DNA from: Cellulosimicrobium terreum
Lineage (GTDB): Bacteria > Actinomycetota > Actinomycetes > Actinomycetales > Cellulomonadaceae
DNA: 64,000 bases
Reading direction: 5' to 3'
Assembly (NCBI GenBank): GCA_014803435.1
Contig: JACYFD010000001.1
Coordinates: forward strand, 620,001 to 684,000
Shown here in pieces: positions 9,150 to 50,266 of the stretch. How positions within the stretch are numbered: the first letter of the stretch is position 1; each line of letters begins with the position of its first letter. The position numbers were made by a program, and so were the translations under genes. The notes under the pieces are model-generated. The model saw only the letters and a list, made by a program, of their open reading frames with translations. It was not told the DNA's origin and did not search any database.

Positions 9150-11303
9150 ATGAGGCCACGTTCCCGGTCCACCCGTTCCATCGTCTCTGCCGTCGCGGGC
9201 GCGGTCCTCGCCCTCGCCGTCGCGCTCCCCGTCACGGCCGCCGCCGCGGCCCCGGCCGCGGCCCCCACGCCCGCCGCGGCGCCGAGCATCGCGCCGGTGA
9301 TCGACGACAACTTCGCCGACCCGGACATCCTGCTGGTGGACGGCGTCTACCACGCGTACGCGACGAACTCCGACGGCGACAACGTCCAGCACCGGACGTC
9401 GACCGACCTGCAGACCTGGACCGTGCAGCCCGACGCCGCACCCGAGCTCGGCGACTGGGTCGGCGAGTGCAGCTTCGCCCCGGGCGGCGCGACGGACCAC
9501 TGCGTCTGGGCGCCGGAGGTCTCGGCCGTCGAGGGCGGGTACGCCCTCTACTACACGGCGCGCGACGCGTCGTCCCCGCGCCAGTGCATCGGCGCCGCGT
9601 TCTCCACGTCGCCCGACGGCCCGTTCGTCGCCGACGACGAGCCGATCGTGTGCCCCAACGGCCAGGACGGCACCGAGGACCTGGGTGGCGCGATCGACGC
9701 CGCCACCTACAGCGAGGACGGGCAGCTGTACCTCCTGTGGAAGTCCGACGGGAACTGCTGCGCGGGCATGACCGCGACGATCTTCCTGCAGCCGCTGTCC
9801 CCGGACGGCACCACGCTGACCGGCCCGCCGGCCGAGCTCATCCGCGTCGACACACCCTACGAGGGCAAGGTCGTGGAGGGTCCGACGCTCGTGCAGCACG
9901 ACGGCACGTACTACCTCTTCTACTCCGCCAACGACTTCTACGGCGGCGCCTACCGCACGTCGTACGCGACGTCGGACAGCCTGACGGGCCCCTGGACCAA
10001 GGCGACGACCGAGCTCATGACGTCCGACCGCTTCCAGGGCGACGTCCGCGGTCCCGGGGGGCAGGACGTCATCACCGGGCCTGACGGCGAGCCCCGCATC
10101 GTGTTCCACGGCTGGGACCCGACGTTCACGTACCGGGCGGTCTACGTCGCCGACCTCGACTGGTCCGCCGAGGGCGTGCCCTCCGTCCGCCAGGCCTCCG
10201 ACCGCTACCAGGCGGAGGACGGCGTCGTCACGAACGCGCGTGTCGTGACCGACGGCGCCGCGTCGGGCGGCGCGAAGGTCGGCGGCATGGACTTCGCCGA
10301 CAGCTCCGTCACGGTCGAGGTCCACGCCGACGAGGCCGGGCCGGCCCTGCTGGGCATCCTGTTCGGCAACGGCTCCATGGACGGCTCGACCCGCGTCCCG
10401 TCGACGGACACGCTGACCGTCAACGGCCAGGACGCCGGCACGGTCACGTTCCCGCACACCACGTGGGGCAACTGGCAGACCGTCGAGCAGCTCGTCGACC
10501 TCGTCGAGGGGACGAACACGATCACGCTGACCCGCGCCTCCTTCTACGCCGAGATCGACGCGTTCGACGTCTACCCCGCGACGCGCGAGCCGCGCGTCAC
10601 CACCCCGCCCGTGATCCCGGCCGACGCCGACCGGTACGAGTTCGAGGACGGCGTGATCGTCCGTGGCACGGTCGGGAACGCGTCCGGCGCGTCTGCCGGC
10701 AAGAAGGTCGGCGGGCTCGACTTCGCGGACAGCTCTGTCGCGCTCCCGGTCCACGCGGACGAGGCCGGCCGGTACACGCTGGCCGTCCGGTTCGCGAACG
10801 GCTCCGAGCGCGGTGGCTACCGGCTCGCGTCCACCGACACGGTCACCGTGAACGGCGAGGATGCCGGCGTCGTCACGTTCCCGCACACCACGTGGGGCAA
10901 CTGGCAGTCCGTGACGATCGACGTCGACCTCCAGCAGGGCGACAACACGGTGACGCTCACGAAGAAGACCTGGTACACCGAGCTCGACGCGCTCGACGTC
11001 TACCCGAGCGCCGACGTCCCGGCTGAGCCCGACGTCACCGTCGAGGCACAGGGCCGCTGCCTCGCCGGCACCCCGTACCTCGCCGTCCGGGCGCGCAACG
11101 TCGGCGACGACACCCTCGCGCTCACCCTGTCGACGGACCACGGCGAGAAGGCCTTCACCCAGGTCGCGCCGGGGGCGAACGCCTACCAGTCGTTCAAGGT
11201 GCGCGGCCCCCTCGTCGCGGGCGAGGCCACGGTCGTCGTGACCGACGCCGGTGGGACCGCCTCCGAGGTCACGGCCGCGTACGACGCGCTGAGCTGCGCC
11301 TGA
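9150..11303 (+). CDS. Secreted GH43-family glycosidase with two CBM35-like domains and a shared C-terminal module
   Basis: The product has 717 residues and starts at ATG 9150 with GAGAGGA upstream. A signal peptide covers residues 1 to about 33. The GH43 five-blade propeller covers about 45-350: NFADPDILLVDGVYHAY holds the likely catalytic base Asp, and GKVVEGPTLVQHDGTYY holds the likely acid Glu. Two carbohydrate-binding domains of CBM35/CBM6 type follow (about 352-475 and 492-625). They are close duplicates, sharing KVGG.DFADSSV and TFPHTTWGNWQ. The last 90 residues are the Cys-bounded module found on three other secreted proteins here. Arabinan, xylan or galactan side chains are plausible substrates; the exact one cannot be told. 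Confidence 0.88.
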   Translation: MRPRSRSTRSIVSAVAGAVLALAVALPVTAAAAAPAAAPTPAAAPSIAPVIDDNFADPDILLVDGVYHAYATNSDGDNVQHRTSTDLQTWTVQPDAAPELGDWVGECSFAPGGATDHCVWAPEVSAVEGGYALYYTARDASSPRQCIGAAFSTSPDGPFVADDEPIVCPNGQDGTEDLGGAIDAATYSEDGQLYLLWKSDGNCCAGMTATIFLQPLSPDGTTLTGPPAELIRVDTPYEGKVVEGPTLVQHDGTYYLFYSANDFYGGAYRTSYATSDSLTGPWTKATTELMTSDRFQGDVRGPGGQDVITGPDGEPRIVFHGWDPTFTYRAVYVADLDWSAEGVPSVRQASDRYQAEDGVVTNARVVTDGAASGGAKVGGMDFADSSVTVEVHADEAGPALLGILFGNGSMDGSTRVPSTDTLTVNGQDAGTVTFPHTTWGNWQTVEQLVDLVEGTNTITLTRASFYAEIDAFDVYPATREPRVTTPPVIPADADRYEFEDGVIVRGTVGNASGASAGKKVGGLDFADSSVALPVHADEAGRYTLAVRFANGSERGGYRLASTDTVTVNGEDAGVVTFPHTTWGNWQSVTIDVDLQQGDNTVTLTKKTWYTELDALDVYPSADVPAEPDVTVEAQGRCLAGTPYLAVRARNVGDDTLALTLSTDHGEKAFTQVAPGANAYQSFKVRGPLVAGEATVVVTDAGGTASEVTAAYDALSCA
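10443..10908 (+). repeat. Intragenic duplication of the CBM35-like domain
   Basis: A 36-base stretch beginning GTCACGTTCCCGCACACC is identical near 10443 and near 10873, inside the two tandem binding domains of the GH43 protein. The surrounding domains are similar throughout. This indicates a fairly recent tandem duplication or gene conversion. Confidence 0.8.
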
Positions 11304-23322: not shown

Positions 23323-25476
23323 ATGACCTCGCACGCCTCCGGAACGCCTGCGCCGCTGCGCCGTGGCACGGCCTCCGCCCTCGCCCTCGCCCTGACGGGT
23401 GCCGCGGTCGCGACCGCGACCATCGTCCCGACCGGTCCCGCCACCGCAGCCGACGACGCGTCGCTCGTGACGACGTCGGGCACGACGTGGCGCTACCTCG
23501 ACGACGGGACCGACCCCGCGGGCGGCTCCGCGGACCCGCGCACCTGGGCGACGACCGCGTACGACGACTCCACGTGGAGGTCCGGCACCGGCGCGTTCGG
23601 CGCGAAGAGAGGGCAGGCGACCGGGATCGGCGACGCGTTCCCGATCACGACGCTCGTCACCCAGTACCTCCCCGGCACCACGACGGACGTCCCCACGTTC
23701 TTCTTCCGCACCGACGTCGACCTCACGGCGTCGGACCTCGACGGCGTGCCCGCGTTCGAGGGCGAGATCGTGTACGACGACGCGGCGATCGTCTATGTCA
23801 ACGGCGCGGAGGTCGCGCGTCTCGGCGACGACGCGCGCGAGATCACCGAGAACGTGCAGTACCACGGCAACGGCCGTGCAGACCCCGTGACCAGCACGTT
23901 CGTCGTCCCGGCCGACGCGTTCGTGGCGGGAGAGAACACGATCTCCGTCGCTCTGTACCAGGACGCGCCGACGAGCTCGGACATCTACCTCGACGTCCGC
24001 TCCCTGGTCCCGACGCACGGCGAGGTCCGCGACGTCACGCTGGGGATCGGGGCCGACGAGACCGAGGCGACGGTCGCCTGGTTCGCGAACCTGCCAGGCG
24101 AGGGCGAGGTGCAGTGGGCGCGCGCCGAGGACGTGGTCGACGGGGTGTTCCCCGCCGGGGCGAGCTCGGCACCGGCCGACTCCGACGCATCGGCCGACGG
24201 CGCGACGTACCACCACGCGGCGGTCACGGGACTGGAGGAGAACTCCTCGTACGCCTATCGCGTCGGCGGGGTCGGCACGGGCTGGTCCGATACCGCGACG
24301 TTCGACACGGGTACGTTCGGCGACGAGTACTCGTTCTTGTTCGTCGGCGACATCCAGATCGGCGCGAGCGGCAGCACGTCGAACGACACCGCGAGCTGGG
24401 TGCGCAACGCCGGGACGATCGACGAGCGCCACCCCGACGCCGCGTTCCTGGTCTCCGCGGGAGACCAGGTGGACAGCTCGGGCAGCTCGGAGCAGTACGC
24501 GGGCCTGTTCTCGGCCGCGTCGATGCGCACGCTGCGATTCGCTCCGGACGTCGGCAACCACGATGCCGGCAGCGCGCTCTACGACCAGCACTACGCGCGC
24601 CCGAACGCGACCGACGGCATGCGCGACTACTGGTACGCCTACGGCGACGTGCTGTTCGTGTCGCTCGACTCGAACCAGTCCTCGCCCGCCGGGATCGACG
24701 CCCGCGAGGACTACCTGCGGGACGTGCTCGCCGAGCGCGGCGACGACTACGAGTGGGTCGTCGTGTCGTTCCACCACTCGCTGTACAGCCAGGCGTTCCA
24801 CTCGCGCGACGCTGACGTCGTCCGCCTGCGCGAGCAGCTCGCGCCGGCGTTCAGCGAGCTCGGCGTCGACGTGGTCCTCGCCGGGCACGACCACATCTTC
24901 ACGCGCAGCCACCTCATGCAGGGCACGACGCCGGTGGTCCCCGCCGCCGAGCCGGCGACCGGCGACGTCCTCGACCCGCAGGACGGTGAGGTGCTGTACG
25001 TGACGGGGAACTCCTCGACGGGCAGCAAGTACTACGACTTCGACGGCGCGAAGCCATGGACCGCGCGCTGGGAGCAGTCGCACGAGCCGAGCTACTCCGA
25101 GGTGGACGTCACGCCGACGACCTTCACCGTCACCACCTACGCGACGGCCACCGAACGGGTGGTGGACCAGGTGACGGTACGGCATGACGGCGCGGCCCCT
25201 GCGCTCGACGTGGAGGCGACCTCGCGCTGCCTCGCCGGGAAGGCGTACGTCGCGGTCCGGGCGACCAACGCGGTCGACACCGCGGTCGACGTGACCCTCC
25301 GGACGCCGTTCGGGTCGCGCACCGTCACGGCCGTCGAGCCCGGCAAGGCCGCCTACCAGTCCTTCGCGGTCCGCTCGGCGTCCGTCGAGGCGGGAGCCGT
25401 CACCGTGACCGGCGCGCTGCCCGACGGCGGCGCGGCCTCGACGCAGGACGCCGCCTTCGCCGCGCTCACCTGCTGA
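23323..25476 (+). CDS. Secreted purple acid phosphatase-like metallophosphoesterase with shared C-terminal module
   Basis: The product has 717 residues, from ATG 23323 with GAAGGA upstream. A signal peptide (about 1-43) is followed by a beta-sandwich domain (about 45-225, with EIVYDDAAIVYVNGAEV) and a fibronectin-like N-terminal phosphatase domain (about 228-325). The catalytic domain (about 330-560) has every metallophosphatase motif: LFVGDIQIG, SAGDQVD, DVGNHDAG, VVSFHHSLYS and LAGHDHIFTRSH. Residues 625-717 are the Cys-bounded C-terminal module shared with the GH43, M28 and GH95 proteins. It probably releases phosphate from extracellular organic phosphates. Confidence 0.88.
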   Translation: MTSHASGTPAPLRRGTASALALALTGAAVATATIVPTGPATAADDASLVTTSGTTWRYLDDGTDPAGGSADPRTWATTAYDDSTWRSGTGAFGAKRGQATGIGDAFPITTLVTQYLPGTTTDVPTFFFRTDVDLTASDLDGVPAFEGEIVYDDAAIVYVNGAEVARLGDDAREITENVQYHGNGRADPVTSTFVVPADAFVAGENTISVALYQDAPTSSDIYLDVRSLVPTHGEVRDVTLGIGADETEATVAWFANLPGEGEVQWARAEDVVDGVFPAGASSAPADSDASADGATYHHAAVTGLEENSSYAYRVGGVGTGWSDTATFDTGTFGDEYSFLFVGDIQIGASGSTSNDTASWVRNAGTIDERHPDAAFLVSAGDQVDSSGSSEQYAGLFSAASMRTLRFAPDVGNHDAGSALYDQHYARPNATDGMRDYWYAYGDVLFVSLDSNQSSPAGIDAREDYLRDVLAERGDDYEWVVVSFHHSLYSQAFHSRDADVVRLREQLAPAFSELGVDVVLAGHDHIFTRSHLMQGTTPVVPAAEPATGDVLDPQDGEVLYVTGNSSTGSKYYDFDGAKPWTARWEQSHEPSYSEVDVTPTTFTVTTYATATERVVDQVTVRHDGAAPALDVEATSRCLAGKAYVAVRATNAVDTAVDVTLRTPFGSRTVTAVEPGKAAYQSFAVRSASVEAGAVTVTGALPDGGAASTQDAAFAALTC

Positions 25477-31446: not shown

Positions 31447-33219
31447 GTGAGACACGTGAGAGCACGAACGATCGTCCCGACCGCCGCTGCTGCGAGCCTG
31501 CTGCTCGCCGCGCTGACCGCCGCTCCCGTCGGTGCCGCACCGGGCGGTGTCCGAGCCGCTGCCGAGCCGCCGCCGCTCTCCGACCTCGTCACCGGCCCCG
31601 CCGTGATGGACCGGCTGGAGGACCTGCAGGCGATCGCGGACGCCAACGGCGGCACCCGCGCCCTGGAGACGCCGGGCTACGAGGCGAGCGCCGCCTACGT
31701 CGAGCAGGCGCTCACCGACGCCGGCTACACGCCCGAGCGCCAGTACTTCTCGTTCGAGGAGGGGGTGATCGACGCGTTGTCCGCCACCGCGGCGGGCGTC
31801 GAGGTGACCGAGTCGATCTACCCGGCCGAGTTCGCGCCCGACACCCCCGAGGGCGGGGTGACCGGCCCGCTCGTGCAGCCGTCCGACGACCTGGTGCAGG
31901 GCTGCACGGCAGACACCTGGGACGGTGTCGAGGCCACGGGTGGTGTCGCGCTCGTCAGCCGCGGGTCGTGCCCGTTCGCGGACAAGGTCCTCGCCGCGTC
32001 GCAGGCCGGCGCCGCCGCCGTCATCCTCTACAACAACGCGGACGGTGTGCTCAACCCGACGCTCGGGGCCGAGAACGACACGTGGGTGCCGACCGTCGGC
32101 ATCACGCAGGCCGACGGCCAGGCGATCCTGGCGGCGCTGGCCGACGGCGCCGCTCCGGAGGCGACCGTCGAGGTCGTCACGCACGTCGAGGAGTTCGAGA
32201 CCTTCAACGTCATCGCGCAGACGCCCGGCGGACGGGACGACAACGTCGTCATGGTCGGCGCGCACCTCGACGGTGTCGAGGACGGGCCGGGCATCAACGA
32301 CAACGGGTCGGGATCGATGGCGATCCTCGAGGTCGCGGTGCAGCTCGCGGAGGCGACCGACGGCGGGCAGGATGTGGAGAACGCGGTCCGCTTCGCGTGG
32401 TGGGGCGCCGAGGAGGTCGGGCTCGTCGGCTCGACGCACTACGTGGACGACCTCGCGGAGAACGACCCCGAGGGGCTCGACGACATCGCGACGTACCTGA
32501 ACTTCGACATGGTCGGCTCGCCGAACTACATCATCGGCGTGTACGACGCGGACGAGTCGACCTACGAGGCGCCGGTCGAGGTGCCGGCCGGGTCGATCGA
32601 GACGGAGGCCGTCTTCACGGACTACTTCGACGGGATCGACCAGGCGTGGGTGGACACCGAGTTCTCGGGCCGCTCCGACTACCAGGCGTTCATCCTCAAC
32701 GGCATCCCGGCGTCCGGACTGTTCACCGGTGCGGACGGGTCGAAGACGGCGGAAGAGGTCGCGCTGTTCGGTGGGACCGAGGGCATCTTCTACGACCCGA
32801 ACTACCACTCGCCGCTCGACACGATCGACAACGTCGACCCGACGGCTCTCGACATCATGTCGCGCGCGATCGGGAACGCGGTCGCCTCGCTGTCCGAGGA
32901 CACGTTCGCGATCAACGGCGTCGGCAAACCGCGCGTCGACGGCATCGAGGCGCAGGCCCGCTGCCTCAACGGCACGGCCTACGTCGCGGTCCGTGCGACG
33001 AACGGCGAGGCAGCTCCGGCCGACGTGCGTCTGATCACGCCGTTCGGGGAGAAGAAGGCGTCGTCGCTCGCTCCGGACAAGAACGTCTACCAGTCGTTCA
33101 ACACCCGCGCGTCGGCTGTCCCGGCGGGGACGGCCACCGTCGCCGCGTACCAGTGGCGGAACGGCGACCCGGTGTACCAGCGCTACACCGTGCCGTACGA
33201 GGCGATCAGCTGCACCTGA
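31447..33219 (+). CDS. Secreted M28 aminopeptidase with PA domain and shared C-terminal module
   Basis: The start is GTG 31447, preceded by GAGGAGG (590 residues). A signal peptide (about 1-30) is followed by an M28 domain interrupted by a protease-associated insert (about 115-250, with VALVSRGSCPFADKVLAASQ). The di-zinc ligands are present: VGAHLDGVEDGPGINDNGSG (His, Asp), WWGAEEVGLVG (Glu, Glu), LNFDMVG (Asp) and DPNYHSPLDTIDNV (His). It resembles the Streptomyces griseus aminopeptidase family and probably frees N-terminal amino acids from peptides outside the cell. Residues about 499-590 are the Cys-bounded C-terminal module found on three other secreted proteins here. Confidence 0.9.
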   Translation: MRHVRARTIVPTAAAASLLLAALTAAPVGAAPGGVRAAAEPPPLSDLVTGPAVMDRLEDLQAIADANGGTRALETPGYEASAAYVEQALTDAGYTPERQYFSFEEGVIDALSATAAGVEVTESIYPAEFAPDTPEGGVTGPLVQPSDDLVQGCTADTWDGVEATGGVALVSRGSCPFADKVLAASQAGAAAVILYNNADGVLNPTLGAENDTWVPTVGITQADGQAILAALADGAAPEATVEVVTHVEEFETFNVIAQTPGGRDDNVVMVGAHLDGVEDGPGINDNGSGSMAILEVAVQLAEATDGGQDVENAVRFAWWGAEEVGLVGSTHYVDDLAENDPEGLDDIATYLNFDMVGSPNYIIGVYDADESTYEAPVEVPAGSIETEAVFTDYFDGIDQAWVDTEFSGRSDYQAFILNGIPASGLFTGADGSKTAEEVALFGGTEGIFYDPNYHSPLDTIDNVDPTALDIMSRAIGNAVASLSEDTFAINGVGKPRVDGIEAQARCLNGTAYVAVRATNGEAAPADVRLITPFGEKKASSLAPDKNVYQSFNTRASAVPAGTATVAAYQWRNGDPVYQRYTVPYEAISCT

Positions 33220-46486: not shown

Positions 46487-49400
46487 ATGTCCCCTGTCCG
46501 ACCCCCTGCGCGACGATCCGGCGCACGCCGCGTCGTCGCCCTGTCCACAGCCGGAGCGCTGGCGGTGCCGCTCGCGTTCCTGGCGAGCCCGGCGACCGGC
46601 GCCGGCACCGCGAGCACGACGCATGCGGCGACACCGACCGCCGTCCCCGCGGACGCCCCGACGATCCCGGGCGACCCCAGCACGATCTGGTTCGACGAGC
46701 CGCTGGACGCCGCGGCGTCGAACATCCAGCAGGAGTGGGAGCAGCGGGCGCTGCCCATCGGCAACGGTGCGATGGGGGCGACCGTCTTCGGCGGGGTCGA
46801 GCGCGAGCAGATCCAGCTCAACGAGAAGACCCTGTGGTCGGGCGGCCCCGGGTCGTCGGGCTACGACTTCGGGAACTGGACGAGCCCGCGCCCCGACGCG
46901 ATCCAGGGGGTCCGCGACCGGATCGACGCCGACGGGAGCGTGAGCCCCGAGTACGTCGCATCGGTGCTCGGCCAGCCCAAGACGGGCTTCGGCTCGTACC
47001 AGACCTACGGCCACCTGATCCTCGACATGGCGGACCAGGGCGGCACGCCCACGGACTACCGCCGTGCGCTCGACATCGGCGACGCCGTCGTCACGACGAG
47101 CTACGAGCTCGACGGGACGACCTTCACCCGCGAGTACTTCGCCAGCGCGGCCGACGACGTGGTCGTCGTCCGGCTCACGGCGGACGAGCCGGGAGCGATC
47201 GGCTTCGAGGCGCGGCTCGACCTGCCGTCGGGCCGGTCGGACGTCGCGCAGGCGGCGGCGGGCGGCCGCATCACGACGTCGGGCACGCTGAGCGACAACG
47301 GCCTGCGGTTCGCGTCGCAGGCGCAGGTCCTCACCGACGGCGGTACGCGGGCCGACGGCGCGGACGGCCGCGTCACCGTCGCGGGTGCCGACGCCGCGAC
47401 GATCGTCTTCTCCGCCGCGACGGACTACGAGGGCGAGTACCCGGCGTACCGCAGCGGCGTCGCGCCGCTCGAGGTCGTCGCGCCGCGCGTCGACGCGGCC
47501 AGCCAGAAGAGCGCCGACGACCTGCGCGCCGCGCACCTCGCGGACTACCACGAGCTCTACGAGCGCGTGCGGCTCGACCTCGGCGCCGAGCTGCCCGACG
47601 TCCCGACCGACGAGCTCCTCGCCGCGTACCGCGCCGGCACGACGCCACAGAACCAGCGCGCGCTCGAGGCGCTGTACTTCCAGTTCGGGCGCTACCTGCT
47701 CGTCTCCTCCTCGCGCGACGGATCGTTGCCCGCGAACCTGCAGGGCGTGTGGAACCGCGTGAACAACCCGCCGTGGGACGCCGACTACCACGTCAACATC
47801 AACCTGCAGATGAACTACTGGCCGGCGGAGACGACCAACCTCTCGGAGACGACCGCGCCGCTGTTCGACTACGTGGACTCGATGGTCGCGCCCGGCGAGG
47901 TCACCGCGAGCACGATGTACGACGCGGACGGCTGGGTCGTGGGCAACGAGACGAACCCCTACGGGTTCACGGGCCTGCACCAGTACCCGCAGTCGTTCTG
48001 GCAGCCCGACGCCGCCGCGTGGCTCGCGCAGCACTACTGGGAGCACTACCTGTTCACGGGCGACGAGGAGTTCCTCGCCGAGCGCGCGTACCCGATGCTC
48101 CGTTCGGTCAGCGAGTTCTGGTTCGACTTCCTCGTCGTCGACCCGCGCGACGGCTCGCTCGTCGTGAGCCCGAGCTACTCGCCCGAGCAGGGCGACTTCA
48201 CGGCGGGTGCGTCGATCTCGCAGCAGATCGTCACGCAGCACCTCGCGAACACCGCGGCCGCAGCGGAGGCGCTCGGCGAGACCGACGCCGCGTTCCTCGA
48301 CCAGCTCGCCGCGACGCGAGCCGACCTCGACCCGGGCCTGCGGGTCGGGTCGTGGGGCCAGCTCCAGGAGTGGAAGGAGGACCTCGACGAGCCGAACAAC
48401 ACCCACCGGCACGTGAGCCACCTGTGGGCGCTGTTCCCGGGCGGTGCGGTCTCCTCCGCGACCTCGCCGGAGCTCGCGGACGCCGCACGCGTGTCGCTCG
48501 ACGGTCGTGGCGACGGCGGCACCGGCTGGAGCAAGGCGTGGAAGGTCAACTTCTGGGCGCGACTGCTCGACGGCGACCGCGCCCACAAGCTCCTGCGCGA
48601 GCAGCTCACCGGCAGCACGCTCGACAACCTGTGGGACAACCACCCGCCGTTCCAGATCGACGGGAACTTCGGCGGCACGTCCGGCGTCGCCGAGATGCTC
48701 CTGCAGAGCCAGGACGGCGTGGTCTCCGTGCTCCCGGCCCTGCCGTCGGCGTGGGCCGAGGGGTCGTACACCGGTCTCGTCGCACGCGGCGGCACCGAGG
48801 TCGATGCCGCGTGGACCGGCGGCGCGGCGAGCGGGCTCACGCTCCACCCGTCGCGCGACGGCGACCTCACGGTGCGCAGCGCGCTGTTCGCGTCGGGCGC
48901 GTACACGCTGGTCGACGGCGACGGTGCGCCGGTCGAGCACACGCGTGACGGAGCCGAGGTGACGTTCACCGCGGCGGCGGGGGAGGCCTACTCGGCGTCC
49001 GCGCTCGCGACCGTGAGCGTGACGGCCCCCGCGAGCGCCACGACGGGGGACGTCGTCGACGTCACCGCGACGGTGGCTGCCGTGGGCGACGCGGCCGTCG
49101 AGGGCGGCGAGCTCGCGCTCGTGCTCCCGGACGTCGAGGACGGCCAGGCGGAGTGGACCTCCGAGCCCGCGAGCGTCGAGCTCGACACCGTCCCGGCGGG
49201 GGAGACGCGCGACGTCGGGTTCCGCGTCACCGTCGGTGCGGGCAGCGCGTCGGGGACCTCGGCCGTCGTCGCCCGCCTCACCGCGGGGGACGGGACGGTC
49301 GAGGGGCGGGCCGCGATCGCGGTCCGGCCGCCGTCACCGTGCCCGGCACCGCCGGCCGCCGGCACGCTCCTCGCGTGGGACCTCGGCGAGGACCCGCTGA

Positions 49401-50266
49401 CGGACGCGTCCGGGCACGGGCGCACCCCGCGCGTCGTCGGGTCGGGTGCCGTGCTCGCCGAGGGACCGACGGGCTCGGCCCAGACGCTCGGGCCGAGCAC
49501 GTACGCCGCGAGCGAGCCGTTCCAGCTCGGCTACCTCTACCAGGCGTCGTTCGCGGGCGAGTTCCGGATCGACGCCGGGCAGTCGTCGTACCGGCGCCTG
49601 TTCGACGCGCAGCCGGTCGGGCAGGACGCGGACGGCATCCTCGTCGACCTCACCCCGTCGAACAACGTCCGGGTCATCACGGCGGGCACCGGCACCACGA
49701 CCCCGGTCACGGTGCCGACGGGCCGGTGGTTCGAGCTCGTCGTGACGATCGCGGAGAACGGCGCCATCACGGTGCACGTGGACGGGGTCGCGAGCGCGGG
49801 GGGCACGGTCGGCGGCTACGACGCGATCAACGGGTGCCAGACGCGACCGTTCCACGTCGGCGCGAACCAGGGCGGCGGCGAGGTGCAGCGGGGCGCGGTG
49901 GACCGGGTCGCGGTGTTCGCCCGCGCGCTCACCGCGGACGAGGTCGCGACCTGGCAGGAGCTCGCGTTCGACGCGGACGAGCCCGGGCCGGCCGTGAGCG
50001 TCGAGGCGCAGACCCGGTGCCTCGCCGGTCGCGCCTACGTCGCGGTCCGGGCGACCAACGACGACGACGAGGCGCTCGACGTGACCCTCGCGACGCCGTA
50101 CGGGACGCGCACGGTCACGGCGGTCGAGCCGGGGGCGAACGCGTACCAGTCGTTCGCGGTCCGCTCGGCCACGGTCGACGCGGGCTCCGCCACGGTCACC
50201 GCCCAGGTGCCCGACGGCGGACCCGCCGCGGAGCAGGACGCCCCCTTCGAGGAGCGCAGCTGCTGA
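46487..50266 (+). CDS. Secreted GH95-family alpha-L-fucosidase/galactosidase, multidomain
   Basis: The product has 1259 residues, starting at ATG 46487 with GGAGG six bases upstream. A signal peptide (1 to about 45) is followed by GH95 (about 60-800). Catalytic residues align with the Bifidobacterium AfcA scheme: Asn437 and Asn439 (HVNINLQMNYW), Glu567 (SPSYSPEQG) and Asp725 (PPFQIDGNFG). Next come a NEW3/CARDB-like beta domain (about 840-945), a LamG/concanavalin-like domain (about 955-1160) and the Cys-bounded C-terminal module (about 1170-1259). It probably removes terminal alpha-1,2-L-fucose or alpha-L-galactose from plant or host glycans. Confidence 0.92.
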   Translation: MSPVRPPARRSGARRVVALSTAGALAVPLAFLASPATGAGTASTTHAATPTAVPADAPTIPGDPSTIWFDEPLDAAASNIQQEWEQRALPIGNGAMGATVFGGVEREQIQLNEKTLWSGGPGSSGYDFGNWTSPRPDAIQGVRDRIDADGSVSPEYVASVLGQPKTGFGSYQTYGHLILDMADQGGTPTDYRRALDIGDAVVTTSYELDGTTFTREYFASAADDVVVVRLTADEPGAIGFEARLDLPSGRSDVAQAAAGGRITTSGTLSDNGLRFASQAQVLTDGGTRADGADGRVTVAGADAATIVFSAATDYEGEYPAYRSGVAPLEVVAPRVDAASQKSADDLRAAHLADYHELYERVRLDLGAELPDVPTDELLAAYRAGTTPQNQRALEALYFQFGRYLLVSSSRDGSLPANLQGVWNRVNNPPWDADYHVNINLQMNYWPAETTNLSETTAPLFDYVDSMVAPGEVTASTMYDADGWVVGNETNPYGFTGLHQYPQSFWQPDAAAWLAQHYWEHYLFTGDEEFLAERAYPMLRSVSEFWFDFLVVDPRDGSLVVSPSYSPEQGDFTAGASISQQIVTQHLANTAAAAEALGETDAAFLDQLAATRADLDPGLRVGSWGQLQEWKEDLDEPNNTHRHVSHLWALFPGGAVSSATSPELADAARVSLDGRGDGGTGWSKAWKVNFWARLLDGDRAHKLLREQLTGSTLDNLWDNHPPFQIDGNFGGTSGVAEMLLQSQDGVVSVLPALPSAWAEGSYTGLVARGGTEVDAAWTGGAASGLTLHPSRDGDLTVRSALFASGAYTLVDGDGAPVEHTRDGAEVTFTAAAGEAYSASALATVSVTAPASATTGDVVDVTATVAAVGDAAVEGGELALVLPDVEDGQAEWTSEPASVELDTVPAGETRDVGFRVTVGAGSASGTSAVVARLTAGDGTVEGRAAIAVRPPSPCPAPPAAGTLLAWDLGEDPLTDASGHGRTPRVVGSGAVLAEGPTGSAQTLGPSTYAASEPFQLGYLYQASFAGEFRIDAGQSSYRRLFDAQPVGQDADGILVDLTPSNNVRVITAGTGTTTPVTVPTGRWFELVVTIAENGAITVHVDGVASAGGTVGGYDAINGCQTRPFHVGANQGGGEVQRGAVDRVAVFARALTADEVATWQELAFDADEPGPAVSVEAQTRCLAGRAYVAVRATNDDDEALDVTLATPYGTRTVTAVEPGANAYQSFAVRSATVDAGSATVTAQVPDGGPAAEQDAPFEERSC

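Follow-up and report, generated by a model that had tools for sequence, protein, structure and literature searches.

The closest described counterparts of the proteins analysed here belong to the Csc/WxL clusters of Firmicutes. In the sections of the reports drawn on here, Csc clusters are described as encoding CscA (a DUF916 protein with a transmembrane segment, 320-380 residues), CscB (small and acidic, 190-280 residues) and CscC (large and multidomain, with a C-terminal WxL2 domain), and the Csc proteins are proposed to build surface complexes for carbohydrate use (PMC1534035). From modelling and partial experiment, WxLIP is proposed to bind WxL as well as peptidoglycan (PMC10599100), and over 91% of 938 WxL sequences are reported to come from Firmicutes (PMC9772566). 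We describe a module of about 90 residues at the C termini of exported enzymes of Cellulosimicrobium terreum, a member of the Actinomycetota. In our best reading, this module stands where the WxL domain stands in the Csc/WxL clusters of Firmicutes. We propose, with a probability of roughly 0.55, that the module is a C-terminal non-covalent surface tether on a platform composed of a DUF916 protein and a small protein.

By the window we mean the whole stretch of 64,000 nucleotides that was analysed. A first-pass annotation had reported that a GH43 protein, a metallophosphoesterase, an M28 peptidase and a GH95 enzyme of this window end in a homologous segment. Our analysis confirmed this segment, and the motifs listed as shared among its copies were correct. 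All four copies lie on the + strand, are in frame and run to the stop codon. The first copy (11034..11300, ending ...LSCA) is the C-terminal domain of the GH43 protein (9150..11303; PF04616, E 5.6e-48), which presents a signal peptide and two CBM35/6-like domains. The second (25207..25473, ending ...ALTC) closes the metallophosphoesterase (23323..25476; PF00149, E 4.5e-12; PF16656, E 4.7e-13), which combines a signal peptide with a purple-acid-phosphatase N-domain. The third (32944..33216, ending ...ISCT) terminates the M28 peptidase (31447..33219; PF04389, E 4.3e-42), a protein with a GTG start, a signal peptide and a PA domain. The fourth (49994..50263, ending ...RSC), whose first cysteine is encoded at 50018-50020 and whose last is encoded at 50261-50263, terminates the GH95 enzyme (46487..50266; PF22124, E 2e-164), in which a signal peptide and NEW3 and LamG-like domains are also found. 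The starts of the four hosts were predicted heuristically. Pairwise amino-acid identity among the four copies ranges from 41 to 69%. Their similarity greatly exceeds what chance would produce, and a tblastn search using the GH95 copy as query recovered the other three at E 3.4e-33, 1.2e-19 and 1.0e-18.

The family proved larger than the annotation had noted, since a profile search yielded 54 matches in this genome, including the four copies of the window. The module was expected to be always the last domain of its protein. This holds for 52 of the 54 matches, which end 0-10 residues before the stop codon, and for 79/79 named relatives (the best 80 of 470 candidates were retained). It does not hold for the remaining two matches of this genome, which are weak and both located inside one 1703-residue open reading frame (C7:528339 and C7:529164), nor for the internal copies of L187/L249 and L252 (L252:5136-10412), where the module precedes two repeats that we take to be chitin-binding-like. 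The module was found in 17/17 genomes of the genus Cellulosimicrobium that were searched, with 26-65 copies each. At the family level it was detected in at least 81 of 200 genomes and at least 15 of 25 genera, and at the order level in at least 53 of 396 genomes and at least 20 of 110 genera. A sample of the phylum yielded at least 6 of 396 genomes, all six from the same order. In the family, order and phylum searches, no more than 26, 13 and 13 candidates, respectively, were evaluated in each genome, so that copy numbers are floors and some genomes were possibly missed; genomes with a single match were common in the family and order searches. The suggestion that the module is limited to Micrococcales is only partly borne out: the matches of the phylum sample all fall in one order, but Dactylosporangium (L084) and Nonomuraea (L242) also bear the module. 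The Nonomuraea record (NZ_LT559118.1) is filed as a plasmid, and its 11.85 Mb are chromosome-like in size. Several module genes of the record named Sphaerisporangium cinnabarinum ATCC 31213 (L038, L041, L057, L063, L073, L076 and L099) are identical or nearly identical to those of Cellulosimicrobium funkei (e.g., L041 versus L044), and the name of this record is probably wrong.

The module falls outside the families of Pfam and NCBIfam, in agreement with the annotation, which could not name one. In the four window hosts, the final 90 residues had no match in either database at E <= 1, and the 61 modules that were scanned alone against Pfam yielded weak, scattered matches, the best of which had an E of 5.7e-4 and none of which was common to more than 10 members (25 of 35 families listed). 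WxL did not match the four window hosts (E <= 1) and was not among these 25 families; the same was observed for CBM2 (PF00553) on the window hosts and among the 25 families. No solved structure presented sequence relatedness to the module at E < 0.01. In the largely open-access literature consulted, we found no description of it in work on Cellulosimicrobium domains or secretomes, on C-terminal sorting domains of Actinobacteria, or on WxL/DUF916 in Actinobacteria or Microbacterium. DUF916 and metallophosphatase genes are frequent neighbours of the metal-binding domain Ang-2 studied from Microbacterium, in a report whose consulted sections do not mention the module (PMC12537917). A link to the module was considered for the processed dextranase CeDex2365 of Cellulosimicrobium sp. 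THN1, which is described, in the sections consulted, as having about 100 unassigned C-terminal residues and as being apparently cut in culture (PMC9691899). Searches of 17 genomes with the GH49 and Glucodextran_C models gave no match; the GH49 model matched nowhere, so this result is uninformative on absence.

The consensus of the module is approximately VxVxAxxRCLAGKAYVAVRATN..PVDVTL.TP.G.RTF..VAPGKNAYQSFAVR...V.AG..TVTA...........YxAxxCG. Gly37 is present in 52/52 copies of this genome, and Gly12, Tyr51, Gln52, Phe54, Arg57 and both cysteines are found in 92-98% of them. In distant copies, Cys, Asn22, Gly37, Gly47, Phe54, Arg57 and Gly64 are kept at 83-97%, Gln52 is replaced by His in 53%, and Tyr51 is replaced in about 80%. 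Among Cys-bearing copies, the last cysteine is the last or next-to-last residue in 50/50 of this genome, 79/79 of the named relatives and 39/46 of the distant ones. Across 180 copies, both cysteines are present in 176, neither in 4 and a single one in none. Because the pair is kept or lost together, the two residues very probably form a disulfide. A strict twin-arginine motif was found in 2/4 hosts of Cys-less copies but in 0/162 of the Cys-bearing hosts whose N terminus could be read (Fisher p 4e-4, without correction for relatedness). Folded proteins exported by the Tat pathway could not make the bond beforehand, and these few, partly related cases are consistent with the export of folded, reduced protein.

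The module would probably adopt an Ig-like beta-sandwich fold. The main rival to the tether is that such a disulfide-closed domain acts as a structural C-terminal cap or spacer, which would shield long secreted enzymes from proteases and need no partner. Its most conserved distant positions (Cys, Gly, Asn and Phe) would suit the core and turns of a beta-sandwich, and the few weak Pfam matches of the modules include Ig-like and NEW3 models (the NEW3 match has an E of 0.079 in 1/61 members). A plain spacer could also precede the repeats that follow the internal copies, and it would be compatible with the many genomes with one match. The strand pattern of the module is similar, by eye, to that of NEW3 (NPCBM_assoc) and CARDB spacers; unlike these, the module has a Cys pair, a Y-Q-S-F-x-x-R motif and a position at the protein end. 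However, a cap or spacer does not predict that one domain is found on 52 hosts when other Ig-like domains each occur on few hosts of this genome (e.g., Big_4 on 5/27 and PKD_4 on 4/27), nor does it predict the repeated linkage to DUF916 and small-protein genes described below. We regard this explanation as rather unlikely.

The hosts are, with few unclear cases, exported proteins, as the annotation had supposed. A simple script identified a signal peptide in 50/52 hosts of this genome and one more was recognized by eye, giving 51/52; outside the genus, where 8 of the hosts of 49 copies are cut by the end of the stretch, the script found one in 40 of the 41 others. One host of this genome (C8:116303-119681, module match at C8:119396) has no recognisable signal peptide, and its start is uncertain or the gene may be frameshifted. 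Among the matches listed, the catalytic families of the hosts include GH43, GH92, GH95, GH127, GH13, GH3, GH81, GH97 and GH76, subtilase, M28, metallophosphatase, 5'-nucleotidase, GDPD, asparaginase, sugar dehydrogenase and ThuA. GH43 (10) and GH20 (6) are the commonest outside the genus (43/49 hosts scanned).

This abundance of glycoside hydrolases would suit a carbohydrate-binding module that keeps enzymes on insoluble substrate by binding fungal, plant or own-wall glycans. The CBM2 of Cellulomonas-type enzymes is a terminal, Cys-bounded carbohydrate-binding module, and the module resembles it in this layout and in its occurrence on exported enzymes of similar bacteria. The module also carries a less negative mean net charge (-3.3) than the host bodies do (-8.7 per 90 aa). 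The range of hosts, however, disfavours a shared glycan ligand: peptidases, 5'-nucleotidase, phosphatase, asparaginase and GDPD bear the module as well, and a ligand common to all of them is hard to see. In addition, the module has no conserved Trp, and the Tyr51 of the Cellulosimicrobium copies is the position so often replaced in distant ones. In the window hosts, no match to a CBM family falls on the module. Unlike the module, CBM2 is absent from the window hosts, and its 9 places in this genome all lie off the 52 hosts (coordinates compared by script). None of 8 ricin-type places coincides with a module host either (compared by eye). A glycan-binding role thus appears improbable.

Alternatively, the module could be a sorting signal that is recognised, and perhaps cleaved, by export or anchoring machinery of its own, as T9SS C-terminal domains and sortase substrates are. 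In the T9SS of Bacteroidota, dozens of unrelated exported enzymes in a single genome carry one C-terminal domain of about 80-90 residues. The module similarly marks many unrelated exported hosts and has a nearly fixed end at its last cysteine. It differs from the T9SS domain in its monoderm host, in its Cys pair and in that, for the window hosts, NCBIfam has no model matching the module part (E <= 1). Monoderm bacteria with ordinary signal peptides need no second export step, and the frequency of one-match genomes also argues against a dedicated machine. Neither a transmembrane segment nor a sorting motif follows the module, which ends at or near the stop codon, and the annotation was right that no LPXTG motif follows it: this genome has 7 LPXTG-like (Gram_pos_anchor) places, one of them above the cut-off, and the script placed 0/7 on a module host. 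We therefore rejected LPXTG anchoring of these hosts and consider a sorting signal very unlikely.

We compared 12 loci with orthologues of the M28 peptidase: 8 of them, from three genera, present the module after the catalytic domain and 4, from two other genera, do not. Because orthologues exist with and without it, the module is an addition to a complete enzyme in this case. Three of the module-less orthologues, from the fourth genus (L214-L216), end in a Gly/His/Pro-rich tail, and the one from the fifth genus stops shortly past the catalytic domain. The host has a clear orthologue in this genome for 58/79 named relatives, and the module of this orthologue is the closest module of the genome in 43/58 cases and within the top three in 52/58. 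This suggests that modules are mostly inherited along with their host. The coding DNA of the phosphatase and GH95 copies had been described as strikingly similar, as if recently shuffled. This pair does rank 3 of the 1326 pairs of the genome (77.5% DNA identity and 68.5% protein identity), but 77.5% is only a modest DNA identity at a GC3 of 96%, and recent shuffling as a general rule is rejected by the closest modules, which track the host orthologue. In L073 and L102, compared with C1:1139477-1139740 of this genome, the host body is 89% identical and the module 55-56% identical; a replacement of the module in this host is possible.

Module genes are linked to DUF916 genes outside Cellulosimicrobium chromosomes. 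When 72,556 plasmid records were searched by tblastn with the module, four matched, from Cellulosimicrobium protaetiae, Clavibacter phaseoli (two records) and Nonomuraea gerenzanensis. On the C. protaetiae plasmid and on the one Clavibacter plasmid inspected, a DUF916 protein is annotated close to the module genes. A search of the plasmids with such a DUF916 protein as query returned 11 records, and the four module records take the top four places; the 7 without a module match are from Streptomyces and Embleya. The module-bearing GH53 gene of the C. protaetiae plasmid is surrounded by genes for sugar ABC transporters, an arrangement consistent with hydrolysis taking place near uptake. Among 20 low-copy module regions of 13-20 kb, 6 contain DUF916 and 14 do not; two of the 6 were known beforehand, leaving 4/18 as the blind result. 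Five of 10 further module-rich regions (L336-L345), selected without regard to DUF916, also contain it, L345 being apparently orthologous to a region in which the small gene had been found before. By chance, about 0.1 DUF916 match would be expected in 20 regions of 20 kb, given one gene per 4-Mb genome.

The pooled set comprises 21 DUF916 genes in 20/47 genomes or named regions, and none was seen in the other 27/47 within the module regions sampled. These genes lie 0.67-5.2 kb from the nearest module, distances that are bounded by the lengths of the stretches searched. A small acidic secreted protein is encoded by the next same-strand gene after 20/94 modules (19/47 genomes), at an intergenic distance of -31 to 222 bp. 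Of the 21 DUF916 genes, 19 are accompanied on their strand by the small gene or a related domain, which is no more than 153 bp away in 17 cases. This recurrent same-strand spacing suggests that the order module enzyme, small protein, DUF916 likely represents an operon. All 21 DUF916 proteins matched PF06030 (WxLIP_PGBD) at E <= 0.1 (best 3.3e-9), and two that were scanned singly exceed its curated cut-off; the match of the DUF916 profile to EfmWxLIP1 is weak (E 1e-3). According to a hydropathy rule, 21/21 present a C-terminal hydrophobic helix followed by basic residues. DUF3324 (WxLIP_HBD) is absent from all 22 families listed for these proteins at E <= 0.1. The small proteins have about 200-250 residues, a signal peptide by eye and a net charge between -16 and -30; 0/21 match WxL (PF13731) at E <= 1. 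In L246 (4701-6806), a GH18 enzyme beside a second DUF916 gene presents a C-terminal domain related to the small acidic protein; this domain matches WxL at E 0.004, below the cut-off.

The annotation had considered a role in surface retention, wall or glycan binding, or secretion to be likely. The genomic association with a DUF916 membrane protein seen in relatives backs surface retention, but no partner was found in the part of this genome that was searched. This part amounts to 1.01 Mb (22.5%), including about 8 kb upstream and 7 kb downstream of the 52 modules (less at contig ends), and contains neither a DUF916 gene nor a true small-protein gene. The 1.19 Mb around the 79 named modules, mostly from Cellulosimicrobium, yielded just one incomplete DUF916-like tail (33 bits), from C. 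funkei (L080), in addition to the unit of Dactylosporangium. In the genus richest in copies, the platform is known here solely from a plasmid. Two candidates were rejected in this genome. A DUF916 gene at about 307 kb of C1, suggested by L080, was looked for and is absent. A small-protein match downstream of the module cluster at C1:1131-1147 kb (L282, L004) is weak and corresponds by eye to a different protein, an LPXTG-like secreted protein located after this cluster (L282:13706-14446; C1:1148751-1149491).

Overall, the module system appears to work like the Csc/WxL clusters and to miss three of their defining features. Both present a DUF916 protein with a C-terminal transmembrane segment and basic tail, an adjoining small acidic protein, and large exported proteins with a common C-terminal domain. 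In contrast to the Csc/WxL proteins, the shared domain here has about 90 residues, a Cys pair and no WxL match seen, the DUF916 proteins have no DUF3324 match and the small protein no Pfam WxL match. The system also differs in belonging to Actinomycetota, with up to 65 tags per genome that are mostly unlinked to the DUF916/small-protein pair where searched. According to the tether that we favour, the enzyme would be exported through its signal peptide and, outside the cell, the cysteine near the start of the module would pair with the terminal cysteine and close the domain. The closed module would then dock non-covalently on the membrane-anchored DUF916 protein (WxLIP-type) and the small acidic secreted protein, and enzymes releasing sugars, phosphate and peptides would thereby stay near the uptake systems of the cell. 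More tentatively, and at somewhat less than even odds, this may be an actinobacterial display system of its own, in which the platform captures up to about 65 enzymes per genome by one Cys-stapled tag, as a non-covalent counterpart of sortase and T9SS in high-GC Gram-positives.

If the proposed tether is correct, it would explain how sugar-degrading actinobacteria retain dozens of their exported enzymes and would give a function to a module that lay outside Pfam and NCBIfam coverage in our scans. It would also extend the idea of WxL and DUF916 past Firmicutes, with a different tag. Finally, the module would constitute a small genetically encoded tag for the display of enzymes on such cells.
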